Shown: positions 3,380 through 15,777 of the stretch, one piece after another | How the letters are laid out: the number at the start of each line of letters is the position of its first letter | Numbering within the stretch: the first letter of the stretch is position 1 | Origin: a virus | Length of the DNA stretch: 20,618 nucleotides | Virus record (IMG/VR): IMGVR_UViG_3300043786_000772 | Location: 1 to 20,618 of that record | Direction: 5' to 3' (one strand) | Made by a program: the position numbers and the translations under genes | The notes under the pieces: model-generated | The model's database searches: none | What the model was told of the DNA's origin: nothing | What the model saw: only the letters and a program-made list of their open reading frames with translations

Positions 3380-4995
3380 AGGAAGAGCATCGAGGGTTCT
3401 GGTGTGCTGTCAGGCGGCTTTTGCGCTGCGTGACATCCGATTCCCATCACGAGTGCCACGACACCGTCGATTCGGTCGGAGCTTCCATGCGGCGGCTTGA
3501 TCGGCTTGATGTTTCCGGCGGCATCCACCTTGACGCTGACGTTGCTTGCCATCCACGACAGCACCGGATTGCCGCCGTGTCTGAGCTTGCCAGAAACGAC
3601 GAGCCCTTCGAGTTGCTTCGACGGGCTGGACATCGAACCGAAGCCCTGCCCGAAACCTACCACCTCGATCCCGTCCCCTTGCAGTTGCAGGGAGAGTTGC
3701 GTCGCGTTCCAGCGGTCGATCGCGATCTGCCGCACGTTGTATTTTTTGGCGAACTCGTTGATGTCGCGGCGGATCACGTCGTAGTCGGTGACGTTGCCGT
3801 CGGTCATGACGAGCCCGGTGTCGGGGTCTTTGGCCCAGGTGATGTACGGCACGCGGTCGCGCTTTTCGCGGTCGAGTGCGTTGACGCCGGGAATCCAAAA
3901 ACGGCACAGCACGTCAAACGTGCCGTCGGGTTCCGGAAACACCGCGACGAACGCCGACGTGTCGTACGTCGTTGCGAGGTCGAGGCCGCACCAACACTCG
4001 CGGCCGTCAAGCGGAGCGGGGGGGGCGGATGCGCACGCGTCCCAGGTCTCCATCTTGATCCACCGTGTGTCTTGCTGCGTCCACTGATTGAGCCGGTATC
4101 TGCGGAACGAGTTTTCCTTGGTGCTGGAGAGTTGGGCCTCCCGGCAGTCGGCGGCGAAGTCGTCCGGTTTGATCGTCACCCCCCACGACGGATTCGCCTT
4201 CGGCCACGTGTCCTCGCTCGTCCACTCGTCGTTCTCCTCGGCCTCGTAGATGCACGGAAAGAACGTCGGATCGTGAGTCCAATCTCGCAGCACCGCCTTG
4301 GCGTAGGCGTACTGCTCCCAGCAGATCGAGTTGCGATCGTAGCCCGCCGTCGTGATCGACACGATCAGCGGTTGCTCACGGGCCGCACCGCCGTACCGCA
4401 GGGCATCCCAGAGCCGCCGGTCGCGCTGGGCGTGGAGCTCGTCGAAGAGGAGCCCGTGGATATTGAGACCCTCGGCCCGGAACGCGTCGGCAGACAGGAC
4501 TCGGTAGAACGACGACGCGTTGCGGTACGCGATCGTGCGGCGCGAGTCGATGACTTCCAGCACTCGCGAGAGTTTTGGCGAGGCGCGTACCATGCTCGCC
4601 GCCTCGCGAAACACGATCGACGCCTGCTCGCGGTCGGCCCCGCAACCGAAGATTTCCGCCCCGATCTCACCGTCGAAGGCGAGAAGGTACAGGCCGATGC
4701 CAGCAAGCAGCGTGGACTTGCCCTGCTTCTTCGCGGTCGAGATGTACGCTATCCGGTAGCGACGGGTGTTGTCGTCGAGCCGCTTCCAGCCGAACAACTC
4801 GCCAAGCATCGCGGTCTGCCAATCGAGCAACGCGAACGGCTCGCCTGCGTGCTTGCCCTTCGAGTGCCGCAGCCACTTCTCGAAAAAGCCGACGACGTGT
4901 TGCGCAGCCTCTGGATCGAAGTAGTAGTCAAGCCCCTGGCGTTCGGCGTCGCTTCGCAGCGTAATCGGCAACCGGGTCTGCTTCTTCTTGGGCAT
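3376..4995 (-). CDS. terL: Terminase large subunit (packaging ATPase and nuclease)
   Basis: This 539-residue motor protein pumps DNA into the prohead and cuts concatemers. The N-terminal ATPase shows a Walker A-like loop at residues 86-95 (STAKKQGKST), and Walker B at 182-187 (LLFDEL) with Glu186 as the catalytic acid. The C-terminal RNase H-like nuclease shows three acidic sites: Asp339 in GLDLATTYD, Asp427 in IAIDRW, and Asp507/Asp510 in DRIDGVVAL. Length and motif order match the HK97-type Terminase_1 family. The ATG at 4995 has a good ribosome binding site (AGGTGA, six bases upstream), so the 68-base overlap with the small subunit gene is probably real. The stop overlaps the portal start. 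A run of eight C on the coding strand near 4018-4025 does not disturb the frame. Confidence 0.97.
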   Translation of the reverse strand: MPKKKQTRLPITLRSDAERQGLDYYFDPEAAQHVVGFFEKWLRHSKGKHAGEPFALLDWQTAMLGELFGWKRLDDNTRRYRIAYISTAKKQGKSTLLAGIGLYLLAFDGEIGAEIFGCGADREQASIVFREAASMVRASPKLSRVLEVIDSRRTIAYRNASSFYRVLSADAFRAEGLNIHGLLFDELHAQRDRRLWDALRYGGAAREQPLIVSITTAGYDRNSICWEQYAYAKAVLRDWTHDPTFFPCIYEAEENDEWTSEDTWPKANPSWGVTIKPDDFAADCREAQLSSTKENSFRRYRLNQWTQQDTRWIKMETWDACASAPPAPLDGRECWCGLDLATTYDTSAFVAVFPEPDGTFDVLCRFWIPGVNALDREKRDRVPYITWAKDPDTGLVMTDGNVTDYDVIRRDINEFAKKYNVRQIAIDRWNATQLSLQLQGDGIEVVGFGQGFGSMSSPSKQLEGLVVSGKLRHGGNPVLSWMASNVSVKVDAAGNIKPIKPPHGSSDRIDGVVALVMGIGCHAAQKPPDSTPEPSMLFL

Positions 4996-5455
4996 GCGTG
5001 CTCACCTGCGAACGGCTGCTCGGCGTCATGCCGAAGTCCTGCTGAAGGCGGCGCAGATCGTTGCGGAGCGATCGCTCGTCAACCGCCCACGAGTACGGCT
5101 GCGTCCACTTGATCCGCATCCTCCCGTCCGTTCGATTCGGGTCTGGCTCCATCTGCACGTTGTCGCGGCCGAACTGCTTGCACTTCTCTTTCGCCTCAAT
5201 CCACTTAGACCACGTGTGGCAATAGATCGCCCACGCATCCACGTCGGCCTCCGTGAACACGCGCATCCGCCGCAGCGTCGGAACGGTCTCGTGCCACTTT
5301 TGCACGGCGACCGGATCGTCCTTGATCGAGGCTGGCGGGTCGAGCTTGTCAAGCAGGTCTGGCGTCGGCTCGTCCTTCGGCAGCGCCGTCTTCGACGGGT
5401 TGCCGCGAATGTACTTGAGGATCGACGGTTCGGGGGCGGGGCCGCGTTTGCCCAT
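4928..5455 (-). CDS. terS: Terminase small subunit, P27 family
   Basis: This 175-residue protein opens with MGKRGPAPEPSILKYIRGNP, the characteristic start of P27-type small terminases (GRPPKPT...RGNPGK in relatives). It continues with a helical body containing PTLRRMRVFTEADVDAWAIY and a second helical part with the polar C-terminus typical of the family. The small subunit recognises the viral packaging site and delivers DNA to the large subunit. GGAG lies six bases before the ATG. The start is three bases from the stop of the amidotransferase gene, and the gene overlaps terL by 68 bases, so packaging genes and the upstream cassette share one transcript. P27-type terminases often work with an HNH endonuclease; one is encoded at 10069-10410. 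Confidence 0.93.
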   Translation of the reverse strand: MGKRGPAPEPSILKYIRGNPSKTALPKDEPTPDLLDKLDPPASIKDDPVAVQKWHETVPTLRRMRVFTEADVDAWAIYCHTWSKWIEAKEKCKQFGRDNVQMEPDPNRTDGRMRIKWTQPYSWAVDERSLRNDLRRLQQDFGMTPSSRSQVSTHAQEEADPVADYAAKRRRTPGA

Positions 5456-5458
5456 TGG

Positions 5459-6052
5459 TCACTCCAGTCTTGCGAAAAACGACTTCACTAGCATCGTCGC
5501 GCCGGTGAACGACTTTGAGGAGAAGTAAAACCCTTCCTCGGTAGACTTGAAAAACAGCGGGTGCTGCTGTCTCGCAACTGCAAACCGAGCGCTAGAGAGA
5601 AACGCCACCACAAACGGCACATCGACGTGCATTTCTTTTGCGATGTCCCACAGTTTGTCACCTCGCACCTCTCCTCTCGCTGCAACTTCGCACGCGACGA
5701 TCTCGGTGTCGCACGTTGTTTTCGTGGCGTGTGAATATCTCTTTGCATCGTAGACGTTGCCGTTGTGAACAAGCCAGCCGTCCCCGCACGGGAACGGATG
5801 CTTGGCTTGCCGACCACCTTGAGTGGGCAGTCGGCAGTGCCCTAGGATCGCTTTTGCGTCCATAGTGGTGGCGAGTGCGTCGAGCGAGTCTAGAAGACAT
5901 CCATCGCCGTACTGCACCGTCACCTTGTCGCCTGACTTGTGGGAGATTCCGAATCCGTCTGGCCCACGCTCGGCAGCCCGGCTTGCAACCTCCTCCAACG
6001 CACCCTTCTTAGGCGGCATCGTGTTGCCGACAAATCCAAATATGCCGCACAT
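5459..6052 (-). CDS. Stand-alone class II glutamine amidotransferase domain
   Basis: The chosen start, ATG at 6052, makes Cys the second residue (MCGIFGFVG). After Met removal this Cys is the N-terminal nucleophile of class II glutaminases, which release ammonia from glutamine. Other family positions are present: RGPDG (29-33, as in asparagine synthetase), GHCRLPTQGG (71-80), the HNGNVYD loop (96-102) and CDTEI (114-118). The protein has 197 residues and consists of the glutaminase domain only. No synthetase, isomerase or phosphoribosyl partner domain is attached, so the ammonia acceptor must be handled by another protein. The start overlaps the upstream PP-loop gene stop (TGATG). It is the last gene of the cassette before the terminase genes. 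The fold and nucleophile are secure; the substrate is unknown, and an adenylated or otherwise activated nucleotide made by the neighbours is an inference. Confidence 0.9.
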   Translation of the reverse strand: MCGIFGFVGNTMPPKKGALEEVASRAAERGPDGFGISHKSGDKVTVQYGDGCLLDSLDALATTMDAKAILGHCRLPTQGGRQAKHPFPCGDGWLVHNGNVYDAKRYSHATKTTCDTEIVACEVAARGEVRGDKLWDIAKEMHVDVPFVVAFLSSARFAVARQQHPLFFKSTEEGFYFSSKSFTGATMLVKSFFARLE

Positions 6053-6834
6053 CAGAGGGTGTCCAAGAAATGTTTCGCGGAGTCGATGCCTGCCTCGGCT
6101 GCATCCCGAACGATGCCAGCGTCGATCTCGTGCACTTCGAACCATCCGTGCAAGTCAGAGTCGCACCATTGGCGAGCGGGCCAACTGTGAGTGCCGCAGC
6201 GATACCCTCTCGGCCACCGATAAAACGGGGGAAGATCGTTCGCCTTGCCTTCGTAGTGCAAACACGCGAGGACATCTTCGTGCGTCCAATCCGCAATCGG
6301 CGAGACGCGGTATACGCCTTTGGATTCGTAGGCGAAACCCTTGCCGCAGAAGTTTCCGTCAGCAAGTCGCCGCCCAAGAAACAAGACTGAAGCCTTGAAG
6401 ACCTTGAAAAAGCGTTTTTGTGCCGCGTGCTGCGTCCCTTTGAACCACTCGGCGGCAACCTTGGCTGTTTTGGGGAACAACATCCGCTGGTTCTTTTTCA
6501 GCCACTCCAGGTCCCAGCCGTTTGAGTAGACTGCTAACTCGTGCGGCATGTGGTCGGTGATCCACTGGAGAAAAGCCGGGTATTCAAGGTTCGTCATGCC
6601 GAGGCAGCACTCGTAGACACCGGCCGCCTCGCACACGACTTGCAAGGCTAAGGAATCCTTCCCGCCCGACCACGCAAACGCGGGGCGTTTCCCAGCGAAG
6701 TGCCGCACCCTGGCGATCGCGTTAGCCTTCTTTCGCTCGTACTCGTCGCGAGGCACAAGTTCTTCAATGCGGCCCATTGCGGCCACGAAGTGCTCGTGCG
6801 TCGCGGTTTGCTTGCGAGGGATTGCTACTCGCAC
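6052..6834 (-). CDS. PP-loop ATP pyrophosphatase, PAPS-reductase-like (second copy)
   Basis: This 260-residue protein has the PP-loop signature FAWSGGKDSLALQ (SGGKDS at 56-61), which binds ATP and activates a substrate by adenylation in the PAPS reductase / N-type ATP pyrophosphatase superfamily. Later segments include PIADWTHEDVLACLHYEG, the usual C-terminal PAPS-reductase-like block, and a Cys/His/Trp-rich tail (YRCGTHSWPARQWC). The Cys-containing active-site signature of true PAPS reductases is not seen, so sulfate reduction is unlikely. The GTG start at 6834 overlaps the cupin stop by ten bases; its ribosome site is weak, so translation is probably coupled. The gene differs strongly from the longer PP-loop gene at 8074-9249, so it is not a recent duplicate. 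The substrate is unknown; a nucleotide or base in DNA, tRNA or a free metabolite are the main options. Confidence 0.88.
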   Translation of the reverse strand: MRVAIPRKQTATHEHFVAAMGRIEELVPRDEYERKKANAIARVRHFAGKRPAFAWSGGKDSLALQVVCEAAGVYECCLGMTNLEYPAFLQWITDHMPHELAVYSNGWDLEWLKKNQRMLFPKTAKVAAEWFKGTQHAAQKRFFKVFKASVLFLGRRLADGNFCGKGFAYESKGVYRVSPIADWTHEDVLACLHYEGKANDLPPFYRWPRGYRCGTHSWPARQWCDSDLHGWFEVHEIDAGIVRDAAEAGIDSAKHFLDTL

Positions 6835-7568
6835 CGGATGTCACCCGTTGTGCGGATGGCTTCAATCTGATTGGCCGCCGTGCCGTCCACGATGGTGCGG
6901 TTTATCATTGGGTGATCATCGTCGTTTGGCCCCGTGTCGGAGTCGGGATGCCACGCGATAACGTCCATCGTTTCGTCGTAGGTGAAGAACGAGTGCGGCG
7001 TGTCCTCGGGGAGCAGCCAGAGCATCCCCGGCTTCAAGTCAAAGTCTCCGGTCGGCGTCTTGCAGATTCCGTGCCCCCTGGCAACCACGCCGACGCGGAT
7101 GCTCGGATGCGTGTGCATCGTCTGGGAGATGTTCTTTGGAAAGTGCAGGAAGTTCAGGCACGGTTCCCCGAGTCGCGGCGGACAGATTAGCAGCGTATCC
7201 GAACAACCGTCGATGTAGCGAAGTCGCCCGCGATCTTCAATCGGCCCGCCAATAGAGAACAGACCGCGATACCCGTGGCGAACGATAACGAGCGCGGCGT
7301 TGTCGCCGACTTTCTTGCCGTCGCGCCCAACCGCCACCGACTGAATCCGCACTGGCGACGGCACGCAGAAATACATCCCTGGGGCGAGGCTAAATTGCCC
7401 CTGATTCGTGATGATGTAGCACCACTCGCACGCGAAGCCGTACACCGTGTCAGCGTCGCCTTCGTTGCGGTACTCGTCGCCAGATCGCACCATCGAGGCC
7501 GACACCGGGAAGCGGTAGTCGCGAAAGTCAAGTTCGCCCGTGACGTAGCCGATCTTTGCGTTGCTCAT
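6825..7568 (-). CDS. Two-lobed cupin-fold protein
   Basis: This 247-residue protein appears to be a bicupin. The first lobe ends in GQFSLAPGMYFCVPSPVRI. The second has the metal-type HTH (152-154), then RVGVVARGHGICKTP and DFDLKPGMLWLLPEDTPHSF (177-196), close to the canonical cupin motif 1 and 2 pattern with the last His in PEDTPH. Cupins may be dioxygenases, isomerases, sugar epimerases or binding proteins, so the reaction cannot be named. The start chosen is ATG at 7568, which overlaps the IbrB-like stop (ATGA); an in-frame ATG at 7580 is the alternative but has its AAAGG directly against the codon. It sits in the middle of the cassette, coupled on both sides, so it probably acts in the same pathway as the two PP-loop proteins. 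Confidence 0.8.
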   Translation of the reverse strand: MSNAKIGYVTGELDFRDYRFPVSASMVRSGDEYRNEGDADTVYGFACEWCYIITNQGQFSLAPGMYFCVPSPVRIQSVAVGRDGKKVGDNAALVIVRHGYRGLFSIGGPIEDRGRLRYIDGCSDTLLICPPRLGEPCLNFLHFPKNISQTMHTHPSIRVGVVARGHGICKTPTGDFDLKPGMLWLLPEDTPHSFFTYDETMDVIAWHPDSDTGPNDDDHPMINRTIVDGTAANQIEAIRTTGDIRCE

Positions 7569-8077
7569 CCTGGTACCCATCCTTTGTTGAACTCGGCGTG
7601 ACTTCGTGAAACCACTTCGGGCAATCCTGCCTTTTCGGCCAACCGCTCGACCTCTTCCTCCTCCATCTGGAGCAAGAACTGAACGTCATCCTTCTCGATG
7701 CCGCCGTCGAGCAAGGACCGGACGATCTCGGCCATCGGGAGAACGTGATGCTCGCCACGGGCGCGGTTGTGACGAATCGTGGACATCATCCGGTGCTCGC
7801 GGCTCCCGGCAATCCGAACGATCGGCACTTTGCCCTTGGTGAGTTTCTTGATTTCTTTATCGCCTGACACTCGCCAGCGATGCTCGCCATCGACGATGAC
7901 AGGCTTCTTTCCGCTGCCGTCATCGAACACGACGATAGGCTGCGTCCAGCCGTCTTCAAGGATCGAAACCTTGAGGAGCCGGTGCTCGGGCGGCGGTTGC
8001 TTGTTCGGGTTGTAGTCGTTCGGCTCGATGGAATCGCGGTCAACCCATTCGACTAAATCAAGCGGCTGTTTCTTCAT
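7565..8077 (-). CDS. IbrB-like ParB/sulfiredoxin-fold protein
   Basis: This 170-residue protein starts at ATG 8077, overlapping the IbrA-like stop (ATGA). It shows ParB N-terminal domain features: EPNDYNPN (18-25), VIVDGEHRWR (60-69, the ParB box II position), and KVPIVRI. It then has TIRHNRARGEHHVLPMAEIV (100-119), a segment characteristic of IbrB-type proteins. IbrB is known from E. coli, encoded next to the PP-loop protein IbrA; the pair affects expression of immunoglobulin-binding genes but its biochemistry is not established. ParB-type domains bind CTP or cleave nucleotides or DNA. The adjacency to an IbrA-like gene reproduces the known pair in the order A then B. I expect the two products to work together; the activity is unknown. 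Confidence 0.88.
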   Translation of the reverse strand: MKKQPLDLVEWVDRDSIEPNDYNPNKQPPPEHRLLKVSILEDGWTQPIVVFDDGSGKKPVIVDGEHRWRVSGDKEIKKLTKGKVPIVRIAGSREHRMMSTIRHNRARGEHHVLPMAEIVRSLLDGGIEKDDVQFLLQMEEEEVERLAEKAGLPEVVSRSHAEFNKGWVPG

Positions 8078-9249
8078 GCCTGAGCCCTCTTCTTTCTTTG
8101 CTTGAGTACGAAGTTGTTCGCCTTGGTGTTGACTTTGCGAAACTGCCTGCCGAACTTGTTGCCGCCAACCCGCGCAACGATGCAAATATCCTTCCAGCAA
8201 TATCCGGTCTCATGATGCGGATCGGCGTCAGGAATAGGCTCTGATGTCCTGTTGCGGTGCACGCTGCACAGTTTGCGAATACACTCTGCAACCTCGGCCT
8301 TTGCCTTGCCTTCAAGCGACTCCAGCAACTCCATAGTGTGCTGTTGCCACGTTAGACCAGCAGGTAAGTCTTGGTCGGAGAGCCCAAACCCGTAGAGAGA
8401 GGTATTGGCATACCTTGCTGCCGTTGCTGCCCCGGCTACTCGCTGAGTCATCTTCCCCCAGAGTTCGGGCCAGCATACCTTGAACTTGTGAAGCCCTCGG
8501 ATTGGCTGCTCTCCGAAGGGCGGGGCGCATCGCTGGTTGTGCCGAGAAACTCCTGCCTTCTCCATAACGTCGTAGGCCGTGTTGTGATCCCAGCCGTAAA
8601 TCAGCGGCGCGCGCCACACGTCCTCCGTGTTCCAGTCGTAAATGGGGTACGCTCTCGTGATCCATCTGTAGTCTGGATCGGCAGTCAGGAAAGCCTCATC
8701 AGTTATGTGCTTCGGTTTTTGGGCAATCATTCCGAATCGACTCATCGACTCCTGGCACCGTATGCCAAGAATCTGACAAACCGTTCCGTTGCTCGGCCCG
8801 AACACCAATGGTGCCGACTGAGGAATGGCCATCCCGAGTTTGAATCCTCGCAGTTCCGTAATCGCCTCTGGCGGCAAGTCGCGGACCCACTTCTCGCGAT
8901 CATCTGGAAGCCACGGATACCAGTGCGGCTGTTTCTCAGAGCAAGCGTTTTTGTGCTGCACCGGGATGCAGTACCAGTGAAAACGAACCTCTGGCAACTG
9001 AGACACGCGGCGCATGTAGTCAACGGTATCTGGAGGGATTGCCTCCTCGTCAAATGATAAAACGTCCAGCGGTAACTGGCCGCGCCGCCGCGCCGCTTCG
9101 ATCGCGATGTTGAGGCAAGCCGTGGAGTCCTTGCCGCCACTGAAACTAACCACGACTTTGTCGAACTTGTCGAAGCACAGTTCGACCCGCTTGACAGCAA
9201 GGTCGTAGCATGTCTCTTCAGTGTGCTTCTTTGATCTAGTCTTAGGCAC
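8074..9249 (-). CDS. IbrA-like PP-loop (PAPS-reductase-type) protein
   Basis: The chosen start is GTG at 9249, with GGAGG ten bases upstream and an eight-base overlap with the preceding ParB-like stop; this gives 391 residues. An ATG at 9312 would overlap the previous gene by 71 bases and add 21 non-conserved residues. The PP-loop is VVVSFSGGKDSTACLNIA (SGGKDS at 37-42). Further family segments include DVLSFDEEAIPPDTVDYMRR, GIRCQESMSRFG, PIYDWNTEDVW and the C-terminal Cys/His-containing region. Length and blocks match the IbrA/DUF3440 type rather than classic PAPS reductase (about 240-300 residues). DndC of the DNA phosphorothioation system is a distant relative with the same ATP-activating core. 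The protein probably adenylates an unknown substrate; the IbrB-like partner is encoded immediately downstream. Confidence 0.9.
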   Translation of the reverse strand: MPKTRSKKHTEETCYDLAVKRVELCFDKFDKVVVSFSGGKDSTACLNIAIEAARRRGQLPLDVLSFDEEAIPPDTVDYMRRVSQLPEVRFHWYCIPVQHKNACSEKQPHWYPWLPDDREKWVRDLPPEAITELRGFKLGMAIPQSAPLVFGPSNGTVCQILGIRCQESMSRFGMIAQKPKHITDEAFLTADPDYRWITRAYPIYDWNTEDVWRAPLIYGWDHNTAYDVMEKAGVSRHNQRCAPPFGEQPIRGLHKFKVCWPELWGKMTQRVAGAATAARYANTSLYGFGLSDQDLPAGLTWQQHTMELLESLEGKAKAEVAECIRKLCSVHRNRTSEPIPDADPHHETGYCWKDICIVARVGGNKFGRQFRKVNTKANNFVLKQRKKRAQA

Positions 9250-9877
9250 CGGTGCTTGCCCTCCATGCCGCGAAGATCGCGCAGAGCGTGTCGCCAGCGG
9301 TCTTGGTTCCAAAGGTTTCCTTCGCGTCCTTCATGATTCCACGGACGGCCGACTCCTGGGCCACCGTCAGCGGAACCGAGAACTGAACGTAGTCCTCGTA
9401 CTGCTCAAGCACCTCGTCGGCAGGATTCTCGTTGCCGCCAAGATCTGCGGCCGTCTGTTTCATCTGTGCCTGAATGCTGTCTTCGTACTGCTTTGATAAC
9501 ATGACCTGCAACGCCTCGCTGCCCGTGTTCACGCTGCGAAGCAGTTCATCCAACTTGGCCGCGTCGGAGTCGGCCATCGCAGCAAGCGGATCGAGCGTAG
9601 CCAGAATCTTGTCGGCCTCGGTCTCGGTCACATCGAGAACCAGCACCGGCACGTCGCCGTCGCCAAGCGTCTCGGCACGGAGGTGGCCGTCGATCAGCAT
9701 GAGCGAGCCGTCTGGCAACTCACGTGCGAGGCAGGCGTCGGCAAGGCCGACCTCGGCCAGCACGCCCCGGAGGGCATCTTGCTGGGCTTTGGGGTGTGTC
9801 CGCCAGTTCTTCGGATTGGGTCGGAGGTCGCTAGCAGGGACCATACGGAGCGATTTGACGCGGTTTCGAATGTTCAT
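9242..9877 (-). CDS. ParB-like nuclease-domain protein, first gene of the cassette
   Basis: This 211-residue protein has a ParB N-terminal fold signature: ASDLRPNPKNWRTHP (15-29) and LMLIDGHLRAETL (59-71, box II position), followed by VPVLVLDVTETEADKILATL. In many phages such domains precede or are fused to DNA methyltransferases; no methyltransferase is visible here. The last 60 residues form a separate helical tail. It differs from the IbrB-like protein in sequence and size, so the cassette has two distinct ParB-type proteins flanking the IbrA-like enzyme. The ATG at 9877 has no clear ribosome binding site. It follows the 191-base non-coding gap, so a promoter or leader probably lies there. 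The role may be sequence recognition, CTP use or nucleotide cleavage; none is shown by the sequence alone. Confidence 0.85.
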   Translation of the reverse strand: MNIRNRVKSLRMVPASDLRPNPKNWRTHPKAQQDALRGVLAEVGLADACLARELPDGSLMLIDGHLRAETLGDGDVPVLVLDVTETEADKILATLDPLAAMADSDAAKLDELLRSVNTGSEALQVMLSKQYEDSIQAQMKQTAADLGGNENPADEVLEQYEDYVQFSVPLTVAQESAVRGIMKDAKETFGTKTAGDTLCAIFAAWRASTGA

Positions 9878-10068: not shown

Positions 10069-10410
10069 TCAGTGCCCTCCAGAAAGTCGATGCTGATCGG
10101 TTTTTGTCTTGCTGGCGTGGCACGCGATGCAGAGGCACTGCCCGCCATCCACGTCATACCGACTGCGTCCATCCTCGCAGCGGTCGGTCCCGTGCACCAC
10201 GGGCGATACGTGATCCGCGTGCGCCTCCCTCTTGTTCGCGCACACTCGCCCGCACCGGCGACACGTCCACGCGTCACGCAGGAGCACAGCCATCCGCCAC
10301 GCCCGGTGCCGCTCGTCGCAGTAGCCACGCTGGTAGGCGTTGGGTCGAGCCTCGGGCCTGCGTGGCGTGCGGAGCCGAGGAGGGCGGCACGTCGGTATCC
10401 GCTGCGGCAT
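10069..10410 (-). CDS. HNH endonuclease
   Basis: This 113-residue protein has a Cys4 zinc-stabilised HNH fold: CRRCGRVC (50-57), the HADHVSPVV block (64-72, with Asp66-His67 as metal and catalytic site) and CLCIACHASKT (92-102). The central Asn of the motif, usual about five residues before the first Cys of the last block, appears to be Gly here (GGQCLC). Many HNH proteins vary at this point. Phage HNH proteins of this size often act with the terminase in cutting DNA during packaging, especially in phages with HK97-type terminases. Here the gene is separated from the terminase genes by the modification-like cassette. The ATG is four bases after the gmd-like stop. A homing endonuclease is the less likely alternative. 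Confidence 0.88.
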   Translation of the reverse strand: MPQRIPTCRPPRLRTPRRPEARPNAYQRGYCDERHRAWRMAVLLRDAWTCRRCGRVCANKREAHADHVSPVVHGTDRCEDGRSRYDVDGGQCLCIACHASKTKTDQHRLSGGH

Positions 10411-10414
10411 AGCC

Positions 10415-11383
10415 TCACGCTACCACGCGTCCCCGTAACGCTTGCAGTTCTGCGTCCATCATCCCCGCTACCAACCCCTCGAACGTCACGCTCGGCACCC
10501 AGCCCAACTGCCTGCGTGCCTTACTCGCGTCGCCCTGTAGCAGGTCCACCTCGGCCGGTCGGTAGTAGCGCGGGTCGATCTCCACGTGGTCGCGGTAGTC
10601 CAGCCCCACGTGGGCGAACGCCCGCTCGCAGAACTCCCGCACGCTGTGCGTCTCGCCGGTCGCGATGACGTAGTCGTCGGGTTCGTCCTGTTGCAGCATG
10701 AGCCACATGGCCTCGACGTAGTCCGCTGCGTAGCCCCAATCACGCCGGGCGTCGAGGTTGCCCAGGTACAGCGTCTCGGGGATGCCGCTGGCGATGCGTG
10801 CCGCTGCCCGCGTGATCTTGCGGGTGACGAACGTCTCGCCGCGCCGAGGGCTCTCATGGTTGAAGAGGATTCCGCACGAGGCGTGCATCCCGTAGCTCTC
10901 GCGGTAGTTCACCGTGATCCAGTGAGCGTAGACCTTCGCCACGCCGTACGGTGATCGTGGCCGAAACGGCGTCGTCTCCCGCTGGGGTGTCTCGGCGACC
11001 TGCCCGTACATCTCGGAGGAGGACGCTTGATAGACGCGGCATCCCGGCACGACGCGTGCTGCTTCGAGGACGTTGAGCGCTCCGATGCCGACCGCTTCCG
11101 CCGTGTACGCGGGCTGGTCGAACGACACCCGTACGTGGCTCTGTGCCGCGAGGTTGTAGAGCTCGTCGGGTTCGATCTCAGCGACGAGCCGTGCCATCGC
11201 ACCGCCGTCGGTCACGTCGCCGTAGTGGAGGTTGAGCCGGTTGAAGATGTGCTCGATCCGCTGCGTGCCGAACGTGCTCGACCGTCGCACGATGCCGTGG
11301 ACGACGTAGCCCTTCGCGAGCAGGAGCTCGGCGAGGTAGGAGCCATCCTGCCCGGTGATGCCGGTGATCAGAGCGACGCGCAT
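10415..11383 (-). CDS. gmd: GDP-mannose 4,6-dehydratase
   Basis: The enzyme converts GDP-D-mannose to GDP-4-keto-6-deoxy-D-mannose, the first step to GDP-L-fucose and other GDP-6-deoxysugars. The 322-residue protein shows the NADP-binding motif [13 protein letters not shown] (7-19), the [12 protein letters not shown] block (77-88), catalytic SSSEMYG (121-127) and YxxxK at 146-150 (SPYGVAK). It also has [16 protein letters not shown] (175-190), which is diagnostic for GMD. The start is ATG 11383, because GGAGG lies just upstream; a GTG at 11398 is weaker. The gene overlaps the GDP-fucose synthase gene by 16 bases. The product acts in the cytosol of the infected host and should be fed by the host GDP-mannose pool, since no mannose-activation gene is visible. 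Confidence 0.97.
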
Positions 11384-12294
11384 TGATCCCTCCACCACGC
11401 GACCGTCTCGGCGATTCCGTTCTCCAGGCTAACACTCGGCGTCCACCCGAGGATTTCGCGGGCTCGCGTGGCATCCACCGCACGGCGTGGCTGACCGTCG
11501 GGCTTCGAGGAGTCCCAGCGGATCATGCCCATGTAGCCGCACTCACCCGCGATCATCTCGGCGAGCTTCCTCATCTGCACCTCGCCGCCGCCGCCCAGGT
11601 TGATCGGGTCGGGTGTCGTCACCGTCTCCGCTGCTCGCACGATGCCCTCGGCAGCGTCATCGACGTGGAGGAACTCTCGCGACGCACAGCCCGTGCCCCA
11701 GAGCGTCACCGGATCGGTTCGGCAGAATCGGCGGATCATCGCCGGGATGACGTGCGACGATGCCGGATCGAAGTTATCAAAAGGCCCGTAGAGGTTCGTC
11801 GGAATCACAACGGCACCGGGGAGCGAATACTGCTTGTGGTATTGCTTGAGGAGTTCGTACACCGCTCGCTTCGCCACGCCGTACCCGGCGTTCGTTTTTT
11901 CTGGGTAGCCGTTCCAGAGATCCGACTCGACGAACGGCACGGGCGGATCGAGTGGATAACTGCACACCGTCCCGACGACGACGACCTTCTCGACCTCGAA
12001 CCGTCGGCACTGCTCGATCACGTGCAGCCCCATCGCGAGATTGGCGTAGGTGAACCGTCCCGGCGTCGCCATGTTCGCCCCGATGCCGCCGACTTCGGCC
12101 GCGAGGTGCAGAACGACTTCGGGTCGGTGGTCGTCGAAGAGGTCGATCGTGTCCTCCTCGCTGGTCAGGTCGCACGCGACCCTGCGAGGCACGATCACGT
12201 GGCGGCATCCGCGACCGTGCAACACGCGACAGACTGCCTTGCCGAGAAACCCGGCACCGCCCGTGACGAGGATTCGCTTGGTTGATATGTCCAT
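11368..12294 (-). CDS. fcl: GDP-L-fucose synthase (GDP-4-keto-6-deoxymannose epimerase-reductase)
   Basis: This 308-residue short-chain dehydrogenase-type enzyme makes GDP-L-fucose from the GMD product. It shows the dinucleotide motif [14 protein letters not shown] (8-21), CDLT, the [18 protein letters not shown] block (61-78), the VVGTVCSYP segment (107-114) and YGVAK at 138-142. [11 protein letters not shown] and [12 protein letters not shown] are further family blocks. The VGGIGAN segment is typical of GDP-fucose synthases rather than of other epimerases. The start chosen is ATG 12294, giving a compact N-terminus; a GTG at 12312 is possible. Neither has a strong ribosome binding site. It lies between a glycosyltransferase gene and gmd, so the three genes form a plausible GDP-fucose production and transfer unit. 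Confidence 0.95.
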
Positions 12295-12320
12295 GCCCGC
12301 ATGGTGCGGCACGTGTCAAC

Positions 12321-13256
12321 TCAGCCGTCCTCGTTTCGGCTCGCGAAGTAGCCTCGCACCCACTCGACGAGTTGCGGCGGTGCCGAGTCCGTCCAGCGGA
12401 GCAGCCCGTTCTCGTCCACCTCGACGTGCGTCGCCGGGTCATAGCCGCCGTTCACGACCGGATACCACCGGGAGTGGTACTGGCGGTCGGCGAGGCTCCC
12501 GTGGTGCAGGTGCATCGCGTCACCGGGCAGGCACGCGATCTCGCCTCGGACCTTCGCGTACGCCACCTCGCTCCACTCGCGGAAATGCCGTGCCATCGGC
12601 TCGTTCATTAGTCGCAGGCATCTTTTGACCTGATGCCCCGTCCATCCCTCGACCATCATCGAGTCGCCGCTGCCTACGATGTGCCGATCATAGAGCGGCC
12701 AGATGTCGCGTCGTGCCGCCCACGCACCGCCAGGGCAGCAGTTCTGTTCGCTCAGATACCTTTCGCAGCGATGCCCGACGCACAGCTTCTTGCTCTCGAT
12801 CTGCCCGTCAGGCCCTGCACAGTGCCACTCGTTCCACATCTGCACCACCGGCCACTCTTCGAGCGTGCGGCACAGCCGCTCGGGCCACTGGTGGTCGAGG
12901 AAGACCATGTCGGCGTCGATCCATGCGATTTTGTCGAAGCAGTCGGGCAGGCGTTCGACCGCGAGGTTGATGAGGCGCTCTTTCTGCCAGAGCACGTTGC
13001 GGTCTCCGCCTCGGACCCTGAGCCACGCGTCGTCGCACGTGTAGTCCTGCCCTTCATAGGCGAGCTCTACGTTGAAAGTAGGCACGCCCCACCACTTCAT
13101 CTCGTGGAGGAACCGTAGGTAGTTCCTCCGCAGCGACTTCCACCCAGCCGGGTTCCAGAACACGCACACCACGGCGAGCTCGCCGGGTAGCGGCACCCGC
13201 TCGCGTCGCTCGCGCTGCGGCTCTTCGCGACGCAGGATCGACGACAGGACGACCAT
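12321..13256 (-). CDS. Putative glycosyltransferase (GT-A-like fold)
   Basis: This 311-residue protein begins with a polar N-terminus and then AVVCVFWNPAGWKSLRRNYLRF (28-49, written here in part: residues of the first beta strand and helix). NVLWQKERLINLAVERL and KIAWIDADMVFLDHQWP follow; the DAD at 114-116 fits the DxD metal and sugar-nucleotide site of GT-A enzymes. Further on, NCCPGGAWAARRDIWP and MHLHHGSLADRQYHSRW resemble acceptor-side segments of this kind of phage glycosyltransferase. It lacks a signal peptide or membrane segment, so it is cytosolic. It is directly followed by fcl and gmd, so GDP-fucose is a plausible donor. The acceptor could be a fibre protein, host surface sugar or phage DNA; the sequence does not decide. 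Confidence 0.8.
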   Translation of the reverse strand: MVVLSSILRREEPQRERRERVPLPGELAVVCVFWNPAGWKSLRRNYLRFLHEMKWWGVPTFNVELAYEGQDYTCDDAWLRVRGGDRNVLWQKERLINLAVERLPDCFDKIAWIDADMVFLDHQWPERLCRTLEEWPVVQMWNEWHCAGPDGQIESKKLCVGHRCERYLSEQNCCPGGAWAARRDIWPLYDRHIVGSGDSMMVEGWTGHQVKRCLRLMNEPMARHFREWSEVAYAKVRGEIACLPGDAMHLHHGSLADRQYHSRWYPVVNGGYDPATHVEVDENGLLRWTDSAPPQLVEWVRGYFASRNEDG

Positions 13257-13568
13257 TCACTCGCCCGCCGCGACCACGCCCTGCTCGACGCCGACCTTCG
13301 CCACGTATGCCATCAACGCCCCCACCGCCGCCGCGAGGTCCGCGTCGGCCTCCGCTCCCGCGAGCAGGTCGCGGACGTGGAGCCGCACCGGCTCGGCCGG
13401 TGCCTCTTCGACGCCGGTCTCGGTGGTGCGGAATCGGACGAGTGTCACGCGGGCCTCGGCCTCGCCGCCGACGACACTGGACACAACGATCTCGCGGACC
13501 CACAGGCGGTCGTACGTGGCTGCGTAAGACAGCGGCTCGGCAGCGTACAGAGTGGGGATGTCAGCCAT
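13257..13568 (-). CDS. Small unknown protein after the large fibre gene
   Basis: This 103-residue protein starts with ATG 13568, overlapping the fibre stop by eight bases, and ends one codon before the glycosyltransferase ATG. GAGGAG lies seven bases upstream of its start only if read inside the end of the fibre gene, so translation is well supported. The sequence has a beta-rich first half (LWVREIVVSSVVGGEAEARVT) and an acidic, Ala-rich helical second half. There is no signal peptide, membrane segment or metal motif. I do not recognise a family. Its place directly after a long fibre gene suggests a fibre-assembly or capping role, which is inference only. Confidence 0.65.
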   Translation of the reverse strand: MADIPTLYAAEPLSYAATYDRLWVREIVVSSVVGGEAEARVTLVRFRTTETGVEEAPAEPVRLHVRDLLAGAEADADLAAAVGALMAYVAKVGVEQGVVAAGE

Positions 13569-15777
13569 TGAGTTGCTCCTCTAGTGCGGCGATGCGTGCT
13601 TCCAGTTGCTGGATGTACTTCAACATCGGCGTGATCAACTTGCTGTACGTGATGCCACGCAGTTGCGCCTCGCCGTCCACGTCGTCGTAGAAGCAGAGTT
13701 CCGGCTTGACCGCTTCCACGTCCTCAGCGATCAGACCGTAGTCGGTGACGCCGTCGGCCTCGTCGCTGTACGTGCCGTCGGCGTTCTTCTTGCGATAGCG
13801 GTACGAGACAGGCGCGAGCGCCGAGAGCCATGACACGTCGTCAATCGCGGCGATGTCGGTCTTGCTCTCGCGGATGGAGGAGACGTATCCGAGTTTGCCA
13901 GTGGAGTCGATGAATAGATCGCGGTTGGTCGCTCCGACGGTGTCTTCGTACACGTCAGACATGGTTACTACGCCGTCACTGGCAATACGCATTCGCTCGC
14001 CAGCATTTGTCACAAATCGCAAGGCGTTTGCGCCTTCTGCGCTTATCTGCGCAAAACCGCTACTGTTCTGCGGCGGATTGAACGACAGCACATTGCCGCC
14101 TGTGCTGGTGTCGGAAAGCGCCATTGAGCAGGAGCCGTTATTTACGATCAGTAAAGGACGGTTAGGCGACCCACCAATCCCCACATTCCCCGACGCATCA
14201 ATCACCATCCGCTCGGTGTACGTCCCAGTATCGACGCGGCGCCGACCGAACGAGATGCGGCCGTGCGTGTCTGCTGTTCCGCCAGCGAAGATGCTGCACT
14301 CGTATGCCGCACCGCTCAGGTCAGTGCCGATGCCTGCGTTTGCGCCAGAGGACTTGTAGGTGAAGACTTTGACTCCAGTTGCGCTGCCGAGATCAAGAAG
14401 TGCGGCTGGCGCAGTAGTCCCGATGCCAACTTTCCCACCGCCGCCCTGAAGCACAAGGTCGCCCCAGACTCCGCCGCCAGTAGTGAGTGCGCCTATTCCT
14501 CCGTATGTGTTTCCGGTGGTAGCGCCCGTGTACATCGTCACTATGGAACCAGTACCGCCTGCCAGCGAGAAATTGCTGTTCGTCAGCCAAAACTCGCCAC
14601 CAAGCACGTGGAGCGACTGGCCGGGCAGGTTGGTGCCAATCCCTACTCGCCCGCTCGCATCAACCCGCACCCGCTCAACGTCGCCAGTCGAAAGCGCCAG
14701 CGTATTGGCTAGCGGGAAAAACATCCCCGTATCCGGGTCGCCCGTCGGTGCCACGCTGCACGTCGTCTTGCTGCCTGCGGTGACGAGGACCTGCCCCGCG
14801 AACGTGGCGGCGCCGGTGGAGGAGACTGTAACGGCGGTGACATACCCGGCACGCTGTATCTTTACGTTGCCGGTTGTGTTGCCTGACCCAAGACCGAGAT
14901 ACAGATCATTTCCGTTGACCAGTTCCAGCACCCTCGTCCCAGTGCCGCCGACATGATCTATCAGCGACGCCTGCACTTCTGAGGTCGTATACAACGAAAT
15001 CTCGCCGCCGTTTTCGTTGTAGCCGAAAGCGTGCGACAGACTGCCACTGTTTGCCTTGACTTGAAACACGCCGGATACGATCGCGGTGCCAGTGAACGTA
15101 GGACTCGCCGTCGGCTGCACGCTCATCACCGTGCGTGCCGTCGCGGCGTCCAGCTCCTCCACGTCGCCTGCACCCGCAGACGAGCGACCGAGAATGCGGC
15201 TGGTGGCGGAGACGTTCTGAATCTTGGCGTAGGTGACGGCGTCGTTGGCGATCTTCGCCGTCGTCACGCTGCCATCGGTCGGCGTGCGGGTGTCGCTCAA
15301 TCGACTGTCATCGCCGCGACAGGCAGAGGTGTTGCTCGTCCCGTACGTCACGCTGACTGTGCCCGACGACACGCCGAGCCCCGTGCCGACGATCACCGCA
15401 CCGGCGGCCAGCGTCGTCGCGAGGGGCAGGCGGGCGGCGTCCAGCGTGCCGGACGTGATGTCGCTGGCGGCGTGGGCGTGCGACGACGACGCCTTGCCAT
15501 CCAGCGCCGTCTGAAGCCCGGTCACGTCGGAAATCGAATGGGTGTGGCTGGAAGCCGCCTTGCCATCGAGCGCCGTCTGCAAGCCGGTCACATCGGAGAT
15601 CGAGTGCGTATGGCTGGCGAGCGCATAACTCTGGAAAGTGAACGACGTGATCACGTCGCTCGCGTTCTTCCAGAAGACTTTGCCGTCTGCGTAGTTGATC
15701 GCGATCTCGCCGTGCTCAAGCGCCGACGGCGTTGCCGACGCTGTGCCGCTGCGGCGAATCTTGACTGTTGTGGGCAT
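13561..15777 (-). CDS. Tail fibre/receptor-binding protein with C-terminal S74 self-cleaving chaperone
   Basis: This 738-residue protein begins with MPTTVKIRRSGTASATP and GEIAINYADGKVFWKN, similar to the N-terminal domain of the major tropism determinant (Mtd_N-like). Two 22-residue repeats (56-99, HTHSISDVTGLQ...) follow, then beta-rich segments such as ASGRVGIGT and VGIGTTAPAALLDLG that recur in fibre shafts. Residues about 633-738 match the Peptidase S74 intramolecular chaperone: SSIRESKTDIAAI at its start, YGLIAEDVEAVKPEL, GITYSKLITPMLKYIQ and a C-terminal coiled coil (QQLEARIAALEEQLNG). This domain helps fibre trimerisation and is then cut off at the Ser before Arg/Lys. The gene is next to another fibre gene with a similar N-terminus. 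The host receptor is unknown. Confidence 0.92.
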   Translation of the reverse strand: MPTTVKIRRSGTASATPSALEHGEIAINYADGKVFWKNASDVITSFTFQSYALASHTHSISDVTGLQTALDGKAASSHTHSISDVTGLQTALDGKASSSHAHAASDITSGTLDAARLPLATTLAAGAVIVGTGLGVSSGTVSVTYGTSNTSACRGDDSRLSDTRTPTDGSVTTAKIANDAVTYAKIQNVSATSRILGRSSAGAGDVEELDAATARTVMSVQPTASPTFTGTAIVSGVFQVKANSGSLSHAFGYNENGGEISLYTTSEVQASLIDHVGGTGTRVLELVNGNDLYLGLGSGNTTGNVKIQRAGYVTAVTVSSTGAATFAGQVLVTAGSKTTCSVAPTGDPDTGMFFPLANTLALSTGDVERVRVDASGRVGIGTNLPGQSLHVLGGEFWLTNSNFSLAGGTGSIVTMYTGATTGNTYGGIGALTTGGGVWGDLVLQGGGGKVGIGTTAPAALLDLGSATGVKVFTYKSSGANAGIGTDLSGAAYECSIFAGGTADTHGRISFGRRRVDTGTYTERMVIDASGNVGIGGSPNRPLLIVNNGSCSMALSDTSTGGNVLSFNPPQNSSGFAQISAEGANALRFVTNAGERMRIASDGVVTMSDVYEDTVGATNRDLFIDSTGKLGYVSSIRESKTDIAAIDDVSWLSALAPVSYRYRKKNADGTYSDEADGVTDYGLIAEDVEAVKPELCFYDDVDGEAQLRGITYSKLITPMLKYIQQLEARIAALEEQLNG
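15481..15612 (-). repeat. Two 66-base tandem repeats in the fibre gene
   Basis: Two adjacent 66-base units (15612-15547 and 15546-15481) encode almost the same 22-residue segment, HTHSISDVTGLQTALDGKA plus Ser-rich end. A degenerate third start (SHAHAASDIT) follows. Base differences are mostly silent, so the protein repeat is under selection. Copy-number change here would alter shaft length. Confidence 0.85.

Follow-up and report, generated by a model that had tools for sequence, protein, structure and literature searches.

IbrA and IbrB (YbdN and YbdM in E. coli) have been named for decades, and to our knowledge no chemistry has been established for this pair. In phages, PP-loop amide ligases of the CmoY type act on 5-carboxymethylcytosine; some of them carry a glutaminase domain and they often lie beside ParBc genes (PMC12783734). 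In the phage archaeosine DNA pathway, Gat-QueC pairs a glutaminase with a PP-loop enzyme, and some phages encode the preQ0 transporter YhhQ (PMC6884629). Here we describe a six-gene cassette in a 20,618-nt fragment (~20.6 kb) of IMG/VR record IMGVR_UViG_3300043786_000772, the whole stretch of DNA analysed, hereafter the window. This cassette combines members of the IbrA and IbrB families with a second ParB-like protein (ParB1), a bicupin, a second PP-loop enzyme (PP2) and a glutaminase (GAT). It very probably performs DNA or nucleotide modification, and it is likely a phage DNA-modification cassette housed in an exchange slot between the constant N-terminal domain of ParB1 and the terminase small subunit gene, terS. 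An earlier note on this DNA had proposed an undescribed phage DNA-modification cassette, and this proposal is now strongly supported, because close relatives hold recognised DNA-modification enzymes at exactly that site and because the whole gene set recurs elsewhere.

The exchange slot was revealed by a search with ParB1, which matched 398 viral contigs, the best 80 of which were kept. The N-terminal ~124-125 residues of ParB1 are common to many of the matching contigs, with up to 96% identity. Close relatives have the same HNH gene upstream and terS, terL and the portal gene downstream, and the content between these flanks differs. At the DNA level, the window is 90-96% identical to L181, L184, L201 and L202 from ~13950 to 9506 and from 5455 downward, the segment in between being replaced in all four contigs with breakpoints at ParB codon ~124 (9505/9506) and at the terS start codon (5455). 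Residues 1-124 of ParB1 (9506-9877) are thus constant among relatives and its C-terminal part (9242-9505) moves with the exchanged cassette. In place of the cassette, L181 carries a TET/JBP oxygenase and an FkbM-type methyltransferase, L184 a TET-associated glycosyltransferase (TAGT), and L201 and L202 a TET/JBP oxygenase together with a Pfam-negative glycosyltransferase-like gene. Of 74 relatives, many being truncated contigs, 41 have the HNH flank gene.

The same pattern extends to the 74 contigs, many of them near-identical, which have both ParB and terS (Pfam was run on representatives of the gene clusters). The IbrA cassette is present in six, and a recognised DNA-modification family in 61 of the 68 others: TET/JBP in 19, C5-methyltransferase (C5-MTase) in 14, TAGT, sometimes with UDP-galactopyranose mutase, in 13, the 7-deazaguanine genes FolE/QueC/QueD in eight, a C5-MTase with an AsnB-type GATase/PP-loop ligase and a CmoA-like methyltransferase in four (L194, L195, L196 and L206), N4/N6-methyltransferase in two and Mom in one. 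Five of the remaining seven have one shared Pfam-negative glycosyltransferase-like gene, and two (L220 and L239) have other sets. Evidently unrelated cargo, metabolic or regulatory, was seen in none of the 68.

Within the slot, the six co-directional genes follow the order ParB1, IbrA, IbrB, bicupin, PP2 and glutaminase, from 9877 down to 5459 (Table 1). Successive genes overlap by 8, 4, 4, 10 and 1 bases, and three bases separate the glutaminase stop from terS; coordinates, overlaps and domains confirm the overlapping cassette described in the earlier note. The glutaminase start was set at 6052 (MCGIFGF), with a TGATG overlap with PP2, rather than at the longer open reading frame start at 6145, since the latter would bury the catalytic Cys. 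Greedy calling of open reading frames and E-value thresholds can miss genes in GC-rich loci.

Table 1. Features of the cassette and of its flanks in the window; families were assigned with Pfam, PHROGs and NCBIfam.
Feature	Position	Strand	Family evidence and remarks
HNH endonuclease, upstream constant flank	10069..10410	-	phrog_589 E 1e-14
ParB1 (ParB/Srx-fold, 211 aa)	9242..9877	-	PHROG ParB families E ~1e-10; no significant Pfam match
IbrA-like PP-loop protein (PAPS-reductase type) with DUF3440	8074..9249	-	PAPS_reduct (PF01507) 31 bits and DUF3440 (PF11922) 52 bits, above gathering cut-offs; phrog_2302 268 bits; GTG start
IbrB-like ParB-domain protein, 170 aa	7565..8077	-	ParB_N (PF02195) 28.9 bits; phrog_2159 195 bits
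Bicupin	6825..7568	-	AraC_binding (Pfam) above cut-off; Cupin_2 just under cut-off
PP-loop-2 (PP2), PAPS-reductase-type PP-loop ATPase	6052..6834	-	phrog_424 E 4e-22; PAPS_reduct 20.8 bits, just below the 22.5-bit cut-off; GTG start
Stand-alone class II (Ntn) glutaminase (GAT)	5459..6052	-	GATase_6 40 bits
Exchanged segment (cassette proper)	5456..9505	-	breakpoints common to L181, L184, L201, L202
Terminase small subunit (terS), right-hand constant flank of slot	4928..5455	-	PF05119 57 bits

IbrA and IbrB of the window belong to the YbdN/YbdM families, and they match the known pair in family, adjacency, gene order and ATGA-type overlap. In IbrA, DUF3440 is placed after the PAPS-reductase PP-loop domain, the SGGKDS motif is intact and the gene is conserved (157 relatives aligned). 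IbrB, which is encoded directly after IbrA with a 4-base overlap, shows a weak sequence match to ParB/Noc structures. What the cassette adds to the known pair is ParB1, a cupin, a second PP-loop enzyme, a glutaminase and a location in a DNA-modification slot.

PP2 has the PP-loop (adenine nucleotide alpha-hydrolase) fold, with SGGKDS at residues 56-61 (~97% conserved save the first Gly, often Ala). Its predicted model (predicted local distance difference test score, pLDDT, 95) gives Z ~15 to PAPS/APS reductases and ~13 to the ATPPase of GMP synthetase (GMPS), so that structure prediction supported a PAPS-reductase-type fold. The fold is thus that of the PAPS reductase CysH, at ~15% identity. 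In E. coli CysH, the C-terminal catalytic Cys motif is ECGLH, which is present neither in PP2 nor in IbrA; the catalytic motif could not be located in PP2, whose CGTH at 213-216 (Cys ~83% conserved) is placed before the CysH tail, the structural alignment ending at CysH residue 220. The operon context of PP2 also differs, being probably that of DNA modification and not of sulfate assimilation. As for the glutaminase, its active-site residues C2, R74, N97, G98 and D115 are conserved in 13 of 13 sequences.

The bicupin keeps metal-type ligands in its second cupin domain only (HTHP motif, H191), and alignment A3 shows invariant H141, H151, H153, H191 and H206. Its model is of low confidence (pLDDT 65); the best Foldseek matches are two-domain cupins including the ureidoglycine aminohydrolase/YlbA type, none of them close, and a profile search of the PDB returned nothing significant. 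With so weak a model, naming an activity for the bicupin from structure was given up.

Compared with the described DNA-modification pathways, the cassette resembles CmoA/CmoX/CmoY in its association of PP-loop ligase, glutaminase and ParBc, and in other contigs this slot holds a set of that type instead. It differs, however, in that neither a C5-MTase (CmoX) nor CmoA lies between ParB and terS, in that its PP-loop enzymes are of the PAPS-reductase and not of the Asn_synthase type, and in that its glutaminase is a separate gene. Similarly, the 7-deazaguanine (Gat-QueC) pathways, which also occupy the slot in eight contigs, apply a glutaminase and a PP-loop enzyme to a DNA base, occasionally with a precursor transporter, whereas the cassette has no FolE-, QueD-, QueE-, QueC- or DpdA-like gene between ParB and terS and uses another PP-loop family (PP2 has no QueC match and that of IbrA is sub-threshold, 13.6 vs 22 bits). 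In Dnd/Ssp phosphorothioation, the PP-loop protein DndC is distantly related to IbrA, whose matches to DndC are weak and partial only, and DndB has been classed with ParB-fold proteins. None of DndA-E is found among the cassette genes (the window is a fragment and genes elsewhere in the genome are possible), and the cupin and glutaminase have no counterpart in Dnd/Ssp systems. Since their defining genes are absent between ParB and terS, the cassette is not a Dnd, Cmo or 7-deazaguanine system, as already stated in the earlier note for the first and the last of these.

A literature search found no paper describing the cassette, and an earlier prediction of parts of it is possible (Iyer et al. 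2013, NAR, gkt573, outside the search). In two papers, phage genes of this sort appear under PAPS reductase or host metabolism (PMC11318856, PMC10434257), and two PHROG numbers in the first (424 and 2302) are those matched here by PP2 and IbrA. Both papers may concern this system or related ones.

The second line of evidence is that the gene set recurs. Searching with PP2 retrieved 80 viral and 73 bacterial loci, of which 97 are complete at both ends. In 95 of these 97, PP2 is accompanied by ParB, IbrA and IbrB; 90 have a transporter and 80 have terminase genes. The association of PP2 with ParB, IbrA and IbrB spans Clostridia, Bacteroidales and Actinobacteria. All six families were found together in an unrelated phage (L076), in the order ParB-bicupin-PP2-GAT-IbrA-IbrB and with a bicupin 43% identical to that of the window, and in five actinobacterial-type loci whose cupin has a single domain (L075, L077, L084, L088 and L137, the last in a Streptomyces cavernae genome). 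The association is therefore beyond chance. The [IbrA-IbrB] and [cupin-PP2-GAT] blocks swap order between lineages, which argues for a recurrent association and not a single inherited arrangement, and the PP2-GAT pair keeps its gene order in distant lineages. GAT was seen directly after PP2 only, in a collection in which most loci were fetched via PP2.

These loci also show that the six genes, although they recur together as the earlier note's coupled cassette implied, are not one indivisible unit. ParB-IbrA-IbrB occurs with a cupin and without PP2 and GAT in L005-L008, L010-L013 and L174, and with a symporter and without PP2 in six loci; no PP2 was found elsewhere in the complete L007 and L011 records. 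In Clostridia and Bacteroidales loci, a sodium/solute symporter, or a Pfam-negative transporter-looking membrane protein (cl37), precedes PP2 or ParB, and the Bacteroidales loci have an additional Pfam-negative gene that looks, by eye, like an outer-membrane barrel. The nearest models for the symporter are PanF/PutP-like, far under cut-off. In this nested pattern, ParB-IbrA-IbrB is the core, a cupin or a transporter is an accessory, and PP2 with the glutaminase is an optional layer. Cupin and symporter were never seen in one locus among those examined, but this split follows host phylum, so that their mutual exclusion is only suggestive.

Several observations were made around these loci. Gut prophages carry, by the terminase region, a gene for a Na+/solute symporter, unusual for a phage, which adjoins or overlaps PP2 or ParB (L061, 1051-2433, and about 100 further loci). 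In a prophage of Anaerotruncus colihominis DSM 17241 (L135), the gene order is symporter-PP2-ParB-IbrA-IbrB. A GP88-like gene (L174, 3967-4641) precedes the ParB-bicupin-IbrA-IbrB core, as GP88 (Pfam) precedes the actinobacterial cassette of L137, and after that core comes a small gene rich in cysteine, which by eye resembles radical-SAM genes and has no Pfam match (L174, 8129-8716). Among cultured phages, INPHARED yielded distant relatives only, with PP2 in one unverified contig; phages of Stenotrophomonas/Xanthomonas match the N-domain of ParB1 at 37% identity, and two of these three matches coincide with annotated DNA methyltransferase genes. In Mycobacterium phage Gaia, an ectoine-synthase-type cupin is fused to an IbrB-type ParB and adjoins IbrA. 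In the cultured Microbacterium phage Hendrix (L168, 1586-5134), an IbrA-type gene follows annotated glucosyltransferase, methyltransferase and N-acyltransferase genes, possibly a further hypermodification cluster.

Adenylation is the means by which PP-loop enzymes activate carbonyl or carboxylate groups. On this basis, and as suggested by the nested gene pattern, a layered amidation chemistry can be put forward, although only tentatively. In the core, the PP-loop ATPase IbrA, with the ParB-fold protein IbrB and ParB1, would adenylate and substitute a base, either within phage DNA or as its nucleotide, and so add a small group that bears a carboxylate. This group would be made or held by the cupin in the window phage and imported by the Na+/solute symporter in gut prophages, an import for which phage preQ0 transporters offer a precedent. 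In the optional layer, PP2 would adenylate the new carboxylate and the glutaminase would give ammonia to form an amide, PP2 and the stand-alone glutaminase then being a split equivalent of the GATase and PP-loop enzymes of the 5-carboxymethylcytosine and archaeosine phage DNA pathways. The cassette genes most likely serve to disguise phage DNA chemically.

Other observations weigh against a DNA-modification cassette with such a chemistry. The cassette holds no enzyme of known base-level chemistry, be it a methyltransferase, TET, DpdA or Mom. Because PP2 of gut prophages is usually without glutaminase, ammonia from glutamine is not a universal donor, and the idea that glutaminase and symporter are interchangeable nitrogen sources was ruled out by L097, L099 and L109, which have both. 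IbrA/IbrB are also found in bacterial chromosomes (ybdNM of E. coli K-12, derepressed when citR is deleted; PMC9068703) without known DNA modification. Finally, slot and co-occurrence counts are counts of contigs, and independent events are fewer.

Among the rival readings, the most probable, though still unlikely, is that the cassette makes a modified free deoxynucleoside triphosphate, which would be incorporated by the phage polymerase or inhibit the host. PP2 and the glutaminase recall the logic of GMP synthetase, a PP-loop enzyme with an amidotransferase to whose ATPPase PP2 is structurally similar, and ParB folds bind nucleotides. However, PP2 is closer to CysH than to GMPS, and among the slot alternatives C5-MTase, N4/N6 MTase, Mom and TET/JBP act on polymer DNA.

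Sulfur transfer, in which one or both PP-loop enzymes would thiolate a base or the backbone like DndC or tRNA thiolases, appears quite unlikely. The PAPS-reductase/DndC-type fold fits such a role, as do conserved cysteines, namely C94 in IbrA (~98%, its single strongly conserved Cys) and C68 (90%) and C213 (83%) in PP2. Yet DndC has a 4Fe-4S centre with three cysteines and a further Cys dyad (PMC10853773), whereas the alignments of IbrA and PP2 reveal only scattered single cysteines and not the three or four conserved together that such a centre would need. The cassette also has no cysteine desulfurase or sulfur carrier gene, and thiolation would give the glutaminase no obvious role. The earlier note had allowed for either an amidated or a sulfur-containing product: the amidated one fits better, and the sulfur-containing one is made less likely by the missing Fe-S cysteine set and desulfurase.

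It is also decidedly improbable that IbrA, IbrB and the cupin alone form the DNA-modifying core and that PP2 and the glutaminase are an unrelated small-molecule moron inserted in the window's group. PP2-GAT is indeed missing in the close core-bearing relatives L005-L008, as it is throughout the complete L007 and L011 records, but the near-constant company of PP2 with ParB, IbrA and IbrB across three bacterial groups and the recurrence of the PP2-GAT pair, in the same order, in distant lineages are at odds with an accident of one group, which the wide PP2 search made unlikely. Lastly, auxiliary metabolism or regulation, in which the "PAPS reductase" would aid sulfate assimilation or IbrA/IbrB would be regulators or virulence-linked factors, is highly improbable, for although genes are so annotated (PMC11318856, PMC10434257) and IbrAB is annotated as a co-activator of prophage gene expression, CGTH of PP2 does not seem to be positioned where the catalytic Cys tail of CysH lies and the slot holds recognised DNA-modification genes in 61 of 68 contigs and no evidently metabolic or regulatory cargo.

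Returning to the DNA-modification cassette, its implications reach beyond the window. Slot replacement leads to a concrete prediction, checkable in cultured phages, that IbrA/IbrB-type genes modify phage DNA. We further consider it possible, though far from assured, that the cassette represents a class of DNA hypermodification that is new, its first base group being installed by PAPS-reductase-type PP-loop enzymes instead of by a methyltransferase, a hydroxylase or a transglycosylase. In such a class the precursor would be imported by a dedicated Na+/solute symporter encoded by the phage (with an outer-membrane barrel in Bacteroidales phages) or supplied by a cupin, tailoring would fall to a split PP-loop/glutaminase amidating pair, and the genes would be widespread in gut prophages under annotations of sulfur metabolism. 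If IbrA/IbrB-type genes do modify phage DNA, this would add a pathway without a known base-level enzyme and account for a solute transporter beside the terminase of gut prophages. As "PAPS reductase (cysH)" is often reported as a phage auxiliary metabolic gene, many supposed sulfur-metabolism genes would then be re-labelled as probable counter-defence. The slot is also a discovery tool, any cargo replacing TET, Mom or QueC between ParB and terS being a candidate DNA-modification pathway.

Other slot cargo was noticed as well. In L199 (1811-2665), L224, L225 (3679-4560) and L250 (9702-10538), a gene of one cluster lies between TAGT and UDP-galactopyranose mutase and belongs to a sulfotransferase family (Pfam on L250), making a sulfated, glycosylated DNA base possible. 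The slot of L239 (98-5513) holds two ParB genes and, by eye, amidoligase-, low-molecular-weight phosphatase- and P-loop kinase-like genes, putatively another modification set. In L220 (1910-3686), which has no recognised modification enzyme, an ABC-like ATPase seemingly fused to a GNAT-like domain is followed by a formyltransferase-like gene, and in L233 (2783-5356), a gene for a radical-SAM-like protein comes after TET/JBP, together with two more, unassigned genes.

In the window itself, GDP-mannose dehydratase, GDP-fucose synthase-like and glycosyltransferase-like genes lie at 10415-13256, between the tail and packaging genes. These sugar genes are probably outside the cassette, because sister phages retain them regardless of what the slot holds. 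The gene at 13561-15777 encodes a tail protein that contains phage tail repeats and ends in a Peptidase_S74 intramolecular chaperone.

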